A stretch of DNA of 64,000 nt from an uncultured Blastocatellia bacterium. Its GTDB lineage: Bacteria; Acidobacteriota; Blastocatellia; Chloracidobacteriales; Chloracidobacteriaceae. The position numbers and the translations under genes were made by a program. The DNA is taken from positions 1 through 64,000 of the forward strand of contig CALGZC010000011.1 in NCBI GenBank assembly GCA_937934745.1, read 5' to 3'. The notes below the pieces were generated by a model. The model had not been told where the DNA came from. It saw only the letters and a program-made list of their open reading frames with translations, and did not search any database. Shown piece after piece: positions 46,739-49,255 of the stretch (its first letter is position 1; each line of letters starts with the position of its first letter).

Positions 46739-48124
46739 TTACAAAAGCTCGACGGCGTAATCTGGGAAGGCTTCGTGCAGGTCTTCGAGCAGCCTTGGTG
46801 AAGGTTGGACACCGAAGGCCCGATGGGCGCGCAGCCTGACTTGTGTGCCAGAAGGTAAGCGCACGATGAAGTTGAGTGACCGTTCGCCCCGATGGCGATC
46901 GAGCAAGTCCCTCAGTTGTTTAGCCCGCTCGTCGTTCAGGGTCTCCGCGTGAAGGTGGATGGTGATGCCTTGTGCATAGCGCTCACGTAAACCTTCAAGG
47001 GGCTCGGCAGCTTCGGCAATGATGCGCGTCGGTGTTCCGTCTGCCAACTCAAGACGGCCGGTGACGACAACGGCAGCGCCATCCTGCACCTTGGGTTCTA
47101 ATCGCTTGAAGGTCTCTGGCCACGCGATGACTTCAATCCCACCGGTTTCATCTTCGAGGGTGAACACAGCGAAGCGCTCCCCCTTCTTCGTGTTTTTCAC
47201 CGTCAGAGCGTTGACCACGCCGCCCATGCGGACCTCGGCACCGGATGGCTGTGCTGCAAGTTGTGCGTAGGAAAGACTTTTGAGCGCCTGGAGGGTTTCA
47301 CGAAAGATTGCCAGGGGATGGCCGGTCAGGTAAAACCCCAGCGTTGCCTTTTCACCGGCCAAACTTTCTTCCGGCGTCCATTCCACGACGTTGGGCAGCG
47401 CTGCTTCGGACGCCTGCCGGTGGTCGTCGGCAGCATCACCGAACAGTGATGCCTGCCCGGTTGCCGCAGCGCGGTACGCTCGCGCACCCTGTTCAAGCGC
47501 GGCATCAATGGCCGCAAATTTCTGGGCGCGCGTCCCGGGAAGGCTGTCGAAGGCGCCGGACTTAATGAGACTTTCCAAGACACGCCGGTTCAGGGCTTTC
47601 GGGTCAACCCGCTCGGTGAAGTCAAACAACGACTGGAACGGGCCGTGCTGTTCGCGGGCAACGATCACGGCGTCCACGGTGGCTTCGCCAAGGCCTTTGA
47701 TGGCCATCAGCCCGAAGCGAATTTTTCCTCCCATGGCCGTAAAAACGTGCTGGCTGAGGTTGACATCCGGGGGCAAAATCTCAACACCCTGTTCACGCGC
47801 ACTCTCAATATAACGGGCAACCTTGTCGCTGTCGCCGAGTTCGTTGCTGAGGACGGCCGCCCAGAAATGTGCCGGGTAATGTGCCTTCAGATAGGCCGTC
47901 CGGTATGCGAGGATGCCGTAGCAGACCGAGTGGCTGTTGGCCGTCAGAATGCCGTTGATGAAGTAGTTGTGGTACGGCGCGCGCATGGTCAAGTTGTACG
48001 TCGGCGCCGTCCCGGCCGGCGTAACGCGGACAATGTTGATTTCACGCAGCGACATGCTTCGGAGCTGAAAGCGATCAGGACGTTGCTGCGCGGAGCATAC
48101 GCAACGTCCTGCGGCCAAGTCCAC
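46739..48124 (-). CDS. dnaE: Split DNA polymerase III alpha: intein C-terminal half + DnaE C-terminal part (GTG 48124 or ATG 48055)
   Basis: IntC MSLREINIVRVTPAGTAPTYNLTMRAPYHNYFINGILTAN followed by SHSVCYGILAYRTAYLKAHYPAHFWAAVLSNELGDSDKVARYIESAREQGVEILPPDVN...; no N-terminal DnaE upstream, where pdxS is found. Confidence 0.88.
   Translation of the reverse strand: MDLAAGRCVCSAQQRPDRFQLRSMSLREINIVRVTPAGTAPTYNLTMRAPYHNYFINGILTANSHSVCYGILAYRTAYLKAHYPAHFWAAVLSNELGDSDKVARYIESAREQGVEILPPDVNLSQHVFTAMGGKIRFGLMAIKGLGEATVDAVIVAREQHGPFQSLFDFTERVDPKALNRRVLESLIKSGAFDSLPGTRAQKFAAIDAALEQGARAYRAAATGQASLFGDAADDHRQASEAALPNVVEWTPEESLAGEKATLGFYLTGHPLAIFRETLQALKSLSYAQLAAQPSGAEVRMGGVVNALTVKNTKKGERFAVFTLEDETGGIEVIAWPETFKRLEPKVQDGAAVVVTGRLELADGTPTRIIAEAAEPLEGLRERYAQGITIHLHAETLNDERAKQLRDLLDRHRGERSLNFIVRLPSGTQVRLRAHRAFGVQPSPRLLEDLHEAFPDYAVELL
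47936..48055 (-). other. Intein C-fragment (IntC, 40 codons), blocks F/G, predicted AN|S splice junction
   Basis: Codons ...acg tac aac ttg acc atg cgc gcg ccg tac cac aac tac ttc atc aac ggc att ctg acg gcc aac | agc cac tcg; verified on the reverse complement. Confidence 0.85.
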
Positions 48125-48163: not shown

Positions 48164-49057
48164 TTACCAGCCGCGTGCCGCCAGGATTTGTTCCGCCGGC
48201 AGGCTTTCAACGGCCAGTCCGCGCATTGGCTGCCCGTCTTCGATGTCTTCACAGGCCTCCAGCACTTTGGCGGGGTCTTGGTAGAAGGTCACGGCTTTGA
48301 CAATGGCGCGGGCAAAGCGCATCGGATCGTCGGACTTAAAAATTCCGGAACCGACAAAGACGGTTTCTGCACCGAGTTGCATGCACAGTGCGGCATCGGC
48401 CGGCGTCGCCACACCACCGGCGGCGAAAAGGGGAACGGGGAGTTTCCCGTTTTGCGCTACGTCGCGCACCAGTTCGTATGGCGCTTGTAGGCGCTTAGCC
48501 TCAGCCATCAACTCGTCGGCGGCAAGCGTCGTCAGCAGGCGAATTTCACGGCGGATTTCACGCAGGTGGCGCACTGCCTCGATGATGTTGCCGGTGCCGG
48601 CCTCGCCTTTGCTCCGGATCATGGCTGCGCCCTCGCCGATCCGCCGCAAGGCTTCGCCAAGATTGGTCGCACCACAGACGAATGGAACACGAAACGCCAA
48701 TTTGTCAATGTGGTGGTAGGGATCGGCCGGCGTCAGTACCTCGGATTCATCGATAAAATCCACGCCCAGCGCCTCAAGGACCTGCGCTTCCGCCGTATGG
48801 CCAATGCGTACCTTGGCCATCACGGGGATTGAGACGGCTTCCATGATCTGGCGAATCAGGCGTGGATTTGACATCCGCGCCACGCCGCCGTCGCGCCGAA
48901 TATCGGCCGGTACGCGCTCTAAAGCCATCACGGCCACCGCTCCGGCTTCTTCGGCAATGCGAGCCTGGTCGACGTTGACAACATCCATGATGACGCCGCC
49001 TTTGAGCATTTCTGCCAATCCGGTCTTGAGTCGCATGAGCTGCTGGGTGTCATTCAT
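48164..49057 (-). CDS. pdxS: Pyridoxal 5'-phosphate synthase lyase subunit PdxS
   Basis: [78 protein letters not shown]. Confidence 0.98.
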
Positions 49058-49255
49058 CGCACAAACTTCCTCCAAAAACACTGCTCGTCAGTCTTCACCA
49101 AGTGTCCCGTTGGGATGATGCCATTCCTGCTACCCGACAGTGATCCTCGGTGATGCAGGCGCCGGGGGATAAGCTACAAACCACCACGGTACGGCCGTTG
49201 TCACCACACGCGCAACGGCCATTTGGTTGAAATTTGTAACCAATCGGGCTTGTTC

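Follow-up and report, generated by a model that had tools for sequence, protein, structure and literature searches.

How does a bacterium assemble its replicative polymerase when the gene at hand encodes only the end of it? The question is raised by a reverse-strand open reading frame (ORF; 48124..46739) in the first 64,000 nucleotides of contig CALGZC010000011.1 (the window) from an uncultured Blastocatellia bacterium of the family Chloracidobacteriaceae (assembly GCA_937934745.1). Its sole DnaE content is C-terminal: Pfam finds the HHH_6 and OB domains, and the NCBIfam DnaE models match from model position about 750 through the end. A preliminary description, made from the letters alone, had read the frame as the C-terminal 398 residues of DnaE behind a 40-residue intein C-half, and both the domain matches and the alignment bear this out. 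We conclude with high confidence that the replicative polymerase DnaE of this bacterium is interrupted by a natural, trans-splicing split intein of class 1, and that the window gene supplies one of the two halves. This split DnaE intein is best read as distinct from the cyanobacterial one, its halves having probably been scattered by a rearrangement once a nuclease had been lost.

The dnaE-C gene, with its start revised by comparison across the genus Chloracidobacterium, occupies 46739..48055 on the reverse strand, on which all its parts lie. The intein C-fragment (IntC; 47936..48055, MSLREINIVRVTPAGTAPTYNLTMRAPYHNYFINGILTAN) is delimited by its start Met, length, alignment and selection pattern. 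It ends in blocks F and G (47936..48001, TYNLTMRAPYHNYFINGILTAN), with the terminal Asn in place and an Ala at the penultimate position usually held by His, so that YHNYFINGILTAN directly precedes SHSVCYG and the junction reads TAN↓SHS. The C-extein (46739..47935, 398 residues and a stop) begins with the +1 Ser of SHSVCYG. The ATG at 48055 (MSLRE...), 40 residues ahead of the junction, is the start kept in 7/7 genomes of the genus, and the same length and start Met recur in fractured relatives; the segment from GTG 48124 to this ATG shows no conservation among the six sister genomes compared. In the IntC alignment TYN, T, M, P, HNY, N and L.AN are invariant or nearly so.

The rest of the polymerase lies outside the window in the same genome (3.29 Mb in 73 contigs, 99.9% complete), on the reverse strand of another contig (G000:C3:9410-12112). 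This gene encodes 900 residues, carries the PHP, polymerase and finger domains, and the polymerase domain has no other match in the genome. It ends in FADYAFNK↓CVTGDAMVRDAVTG...GRTLRCTLDHKFYT...ILERGLALY and a tail of about 30 residues; the intein N-fragment (IntN) thus starts with Cys1 (CVTGDA...) right after FADYAFNK and measures 135 residues in total. A DnaE N-terminal gene ending in FNK and an IntN, located elsewhere in the genome, is what the preliminary description had predicted. The IntN scores 37.1 bits against TIGR01445 (intein_Nterm), above the curated cut-off of 24.5, and matches DnaE inteins in the PDB (best 4lx3, E=3.6e-11). A genome-wide search revealed neither a second DnaE-C nor an intact dnaE, and PF14890 found no other intein in this genome. 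Separate IntN and IntC genes, each fused to its own extein in a genome devoid of an intact copy, are what defines a split intein. Furthermore, joining FADYAFNK to SHSVCYG restores the exact empty-site sequence, and the predicted splice product, FADYAFNKSHSVCYG, equals the sequence of uninterrupted DnaEs from the same order and class. The IntN is acidic and the IntC basic, a pairing typical of known split inteins.

Because the window genome is assembled in 73 contigs, one could suspect a pseudogene or an artefact in which dnaE-C was wrongly joined to pdxS, its upstream neighbour, and an intact copy was missed. However, both dnaE halves are present in 7/7 Chloracidobacterium genomes, and dnaE-C is preceded by larB-pdxS in every one of them, its neighbours being identical throughout. 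Three assemblies of two contigs each, presumably closed, carry the halves on one contig, separated by about 1.44 Mb (G001), 1.43 Mb (G004) and 0.72 Mb (G005). The same break with the same C-half neighbours in seven separate genomes excludes an assembly error. None of the seven holds a second dnaE-C, and the ratios of nonsynonymous to synonymous substitution (dN/dS) of the exteins are 0.05 and, for the C-extein, 0.09 (Nei-Gojobori estimates within the genus, with synonymous sites partly saturated, here and below). The artefact explanation is thereby refuted and retains next to no chance, and none of the circumstances that the preliminary description named as fatal to its proposal has come to light. 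As the partner gene sits in the same genome and the pair recurs across the genus, the arrangement of dnaE-C and intein is not due to chance. Hence, the dispersal of the halves, with the synteny being common to all members, is probably ancestral to Chloracidobacterium. In the window genome, as in its sisters G001, G004, G005 and G006, dnaE-N is followed by a sigma54 regulator, which had no match in the stretches taken around dnaE-N of G002 and G003.

Is the intein still active? The IntN core (dN/dS of 0.15) and the IntC (0.13) are both under purifying selection, whereas the IntN tail (0.69) evolves without constraint. Among the 15 sequences compared, Cys1 follows the N-extein as FN(K/R)↓C in all, the block B motif TxxH appears as CTLDH, CTMEH or CTPDH with T and H invariant, and the terminal Asn and +1 Ser are found as ..(T/S)AN↓S in 15/15. 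Over its entire length, the contiguous intein of one relative, G009, can be aligned with that of Ssp DnaE (1zde/1zd7). Its AlphaFold model (predicted local distance difference test score 82, predicted template modelling score 0.78) has Ssp and Npu DnaE and DnaB inteins as its best PDB matches (probability 1.00, TM-score 0.7-0.8), and its top matches comprise only inteins and related HINT domains. The model thus points to a HINT fold for the family, by way of a contiguous relative rather than the split pair itself.

Several observations weigh against a functional split intein. By PF14890 alone the IntN reaches 16.8 bits, under the cut-off of 35.8; the low score is expected because the IntN is half a domain. 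The penultimate His of block G is replaced by Ala in 15/15 sequences, although this His is common and not obligatory, and G001 and G004 carry Asp in place of the Gly of NG(I/V)LTAN. The absent His would suit a dead intein, with DnaE acting as a non-covalent two-subunit enzyme, since the halves of a split polymerase could in principle associate. A useless intein would decay, however, and in 7/7 genus genomes the catalytic residues (Cys1, TxxH, the terminal Asn and Ser+1) persist alongside a drifting IntN tail, with no variation in the start or the 40-residue length of the IntC. We therefore regard a dead intein as quite unlikely.

If the intein is active, the system would work as follows. The product of the gene on the other contig would consist of DnaE up to FADYAFNK and the IntN starting with Cys1, and that of the window gene would consist of the IntC and the DnaE C-half from Ser+1. 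The acidic IntN would bind the basic IntC and the pair would fold as a HINT domain, in which Cys1, the histidine of TLDH, the last Asn and Ser+1 may carry out the N-S acyl shift, transesterification, Asn cyclisation and ligation. The outcome would be a full-length DnaE with FADYAFNK-SHSVCYG at the seam. Splicing as such, its efficiency and the cell's dependence on it are all inferred.

A dispersed dnaE of this kind resembles the cyanobacterial one in host protein, in a break ahead of a short IntC, in dispersed halves, HINT fold and Cys1, in lacking the penultimate His, and in pairing an acidic IntN with a basic IntC. Cyanobacterial IntCs are 35-36 residues long, compared with 40 here. The Chloracidobacterium intein is inserted at FNK↓SHS and the cyanobacterial one at FAEY↓CFNKSHS, which shows as a four-residue gap against the Synechocystis precursor 1zde, and the +1 residue is Ser instead of Cys, in another phylum. 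The preliminary description had placed the site four residues downstream with Ser at +1, and the alignment and the splice-product comparison agree with it. The split DnaE intein is established for cyanobacteria (Ssp and Npu DnaE) in the passage of PMC6390638 that cites Wu et al. 1998, and it might be thought that Chloracidobacterium gained it from there by horizontal transfer, as the nearest solved relatives are indeed cyanobacterial DnaE inteins. Yet the identity in the fold search is only about 22-24%, the site and +1 residue differ, and a far closer family, which among the searched genomes occurs in Blastocatellia alone, includes contiguous and nuclease-bearing forms; transfer from cyanobacteria is accordingly highly improbable.

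Other systems also invite comparison. The DnaE intein of Desulfonema ishimotonii (415 residues) also lies outside the cyanobacteria; it is contained within one ORF, and its authors exclude a split of the cyanobacterial type (PMC6390638). The Ssp and Npu DnaB mini-inteins, among the best structural matches of the G009 model, differ in host and are contiguous. In a survey that covered about 2000 genomes, cyanobacteria are the only group for which a DnaE split by inteins is mentioned (PMC3919608), so genes of this kind are easily mistaken for fragments. A partial literature search returned no report of a split DnaE in Acidobacteria or Chloracidobacterium, an earlier mention being possible, and for split inteins with Acidobacteria only the Desulfonema paper.

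Unlike the cyanobacterial system, this one has relatives with a free-standing nuclease and intermediate forms. An IntN profile, applied at E<=1e-20, was positive in 15/162 Blastocatellia genomes and found nothing outside the class among 396 genomes of the phylum. When 84,980 species genomes were scanned for a sequence pattern, seven loci were confirmed, of which six belong to Chloracidobacterium or other Acidobacteria/Blastocatellia; the scan was stringent and missed known members, which leaves absence elsewhere unproven. The seventh locus, from Elusimicrobia (L064:4501-6150), was rejected because the Hint domain there forms the C-terminal end of an unrelated protein of low complexity, whose last residues are VHNRKRINEP. 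A scan of viral contigs returned only two inteins, both unrelated: one with an HNH-like insert in a ThyX-like protein (L083:2897-4492) and one in a helicase-like protein (L084:2894-6094).

The locus occurs in five states. In G033, G025, G147, G150 and G151, dnaE-N-IntN, a LAGLIDADG ORF of about 270 residues and IntC-dnaE-C form one locus (the nuclease was identified by PF14528 in G033 and G025, where it was tested). The nuclease ORF, read in the +1 frame, begins within the IntN tail and overlaps at its far end with the IntC start (ATGA in G033 and G025). In G014 the halves are 21 nucleotides apart, and a +1-frame remnant, MPRTAWNKRLTPEIEERITRYL and a stop, fuses the nuclease's first and last residues (L045:2911-2995, reverse strand); this fossil of an internal deletion matches the 5' end of the G025 nuclease better than all 2000 nucleotide shuffles and its 3' end better than all but 3 of 2000. 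G007 has an ORF of the Uma2 family (PF05685, a putative restriction endonuclease; L041:3224-4258, reverse strand) at the usual position of the homing nuclease, between the halves. G009 bears a contiguous, in-frame mini-intein of 160 residues (L042:2748-3251, reverse strand). Finally, in Chloracidobacterium the halves are dispersed, and a search found no nuclease.

The nuclease-bearing loci share their order of IntN gene, nuclease ORF and IntC gene with the fractured genes of Dassa et al. 2009, described, where PMC11766414 cites them, as split inteins with an intervening homing endonuclease gene of a new family, and with AceL NrdHF, whose nuclease is of the GIY-YIG type; such genes have been found in phage and metagenome sequences (PMC7891396). 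Unlike in those, the Blastocatellia nuclease is a LAGLIDADG enzyme overlapping both flanking ORFs, and the host is the replicative polymerase of a bacterial chromosome. Chloracidobacterium differs further in lacking the nuclease and in having dispersed halves.

What history connects these states? A first extein tree was discarded because the 380 residues upstream of the junction contain a second intein in three taxa. The tree was redone and separates three families cleanly (support 98-100). The intein branch that leads to family f4 is short compared with the extein branch (0.20 vs 1.19), and G033 groups with f4 by intein (85) and with f3 by extein (99), which suggests that the nuclease-bearing form moved horizontally. 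The split G007 is the sister of the contiguous G009 in the extein tree (support 99), so the mini-intein of G009 is most simply a re-fused split intein. Its linker resembles the G014 nuclease fossil, with 8 of 2000 shuffles being equally good.

We picture an intein that was fractured, a free-standing ORF for a LAGLIDADG nuclease lying between IntN and IntC, and that would have spread in Blastocatellia by homing; the nuclease would then have been lost and a rearrangement would have separated the halves in the ancestor of Chloracidobacterium, and in one relative the halves were apparently re-fused. Support for the deep intein branches is weak (ultrafast bootstrap 38-88), and the 15 sequences of the tree are few for ordering steps, which counts against this order of events. 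Alternatively, the halves could have come straight from a contiguous G009-like mini-intein by rearrangement, with no nuclease-fractured ancestor. This history gains from the weak branches and from G009, of the same family, being contiguous, and is faced with a G007 sister that is split with another ORF between its halves, with carriers outside the family that are all split, and with a G009 linker that points to re-fusion. We consider the contiguous ancestor a minority possibility, though a substantial one.

On balance, we lean towards the wider view that a split dnaE arose a second time, in Acidobacteriota, that its relatives preserve the steps (fractured with a free-standing nuclease, deletion fossil, ORF replacement, apparent re-fusion, dispersal), and that every Chloracidobacterium cell would need protein trans-splicing to replicate. 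Until now the dispersed split dnaE has been a peculiarity of cyanobacteria, with no intermediates to be seen. Here an independent case occupies a different site, and a single class contains fractured, nuclease-free, contiguous and dispersed forms, so that the way in which an essential gene comes to be broken, and stays so, can be put to the test. These loci are also a source of new natural split inteins (Cys1/Ser+1, 40-residue IntC), some thermophile-derived, for protein ligation.

A second DnaE intein was seen at an upstream site, NTFGV↓C...HN↓C(T/V)YQEQ, in G007, G009 and G033 (L041:3966-7892, L042:1563-6575 and L043:2263-6150, respectively). Its LAGLIDADG domain scored in G009; one dnaE thus carries two inteins at different sites.

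Directly upstream of dnaE-C in the window, on the same strand, lies pdxS (48164..49081), as the preliminary description had stated and as tblastn synteny confirms. The gap of 39 bp given there has to be corrected: with the start at ATG 48055 and not GTG 48124, it measures 109 bp. A scan of this gap found no consensus promoter or terminator. It does contain a perfect 11-bp inverted repeat (48076..48111, reverse strand) without a T run, which is a candidate for a terminator-like element or RNA hairpin; the z-score of the whole stretch, -1.09, is not significant.
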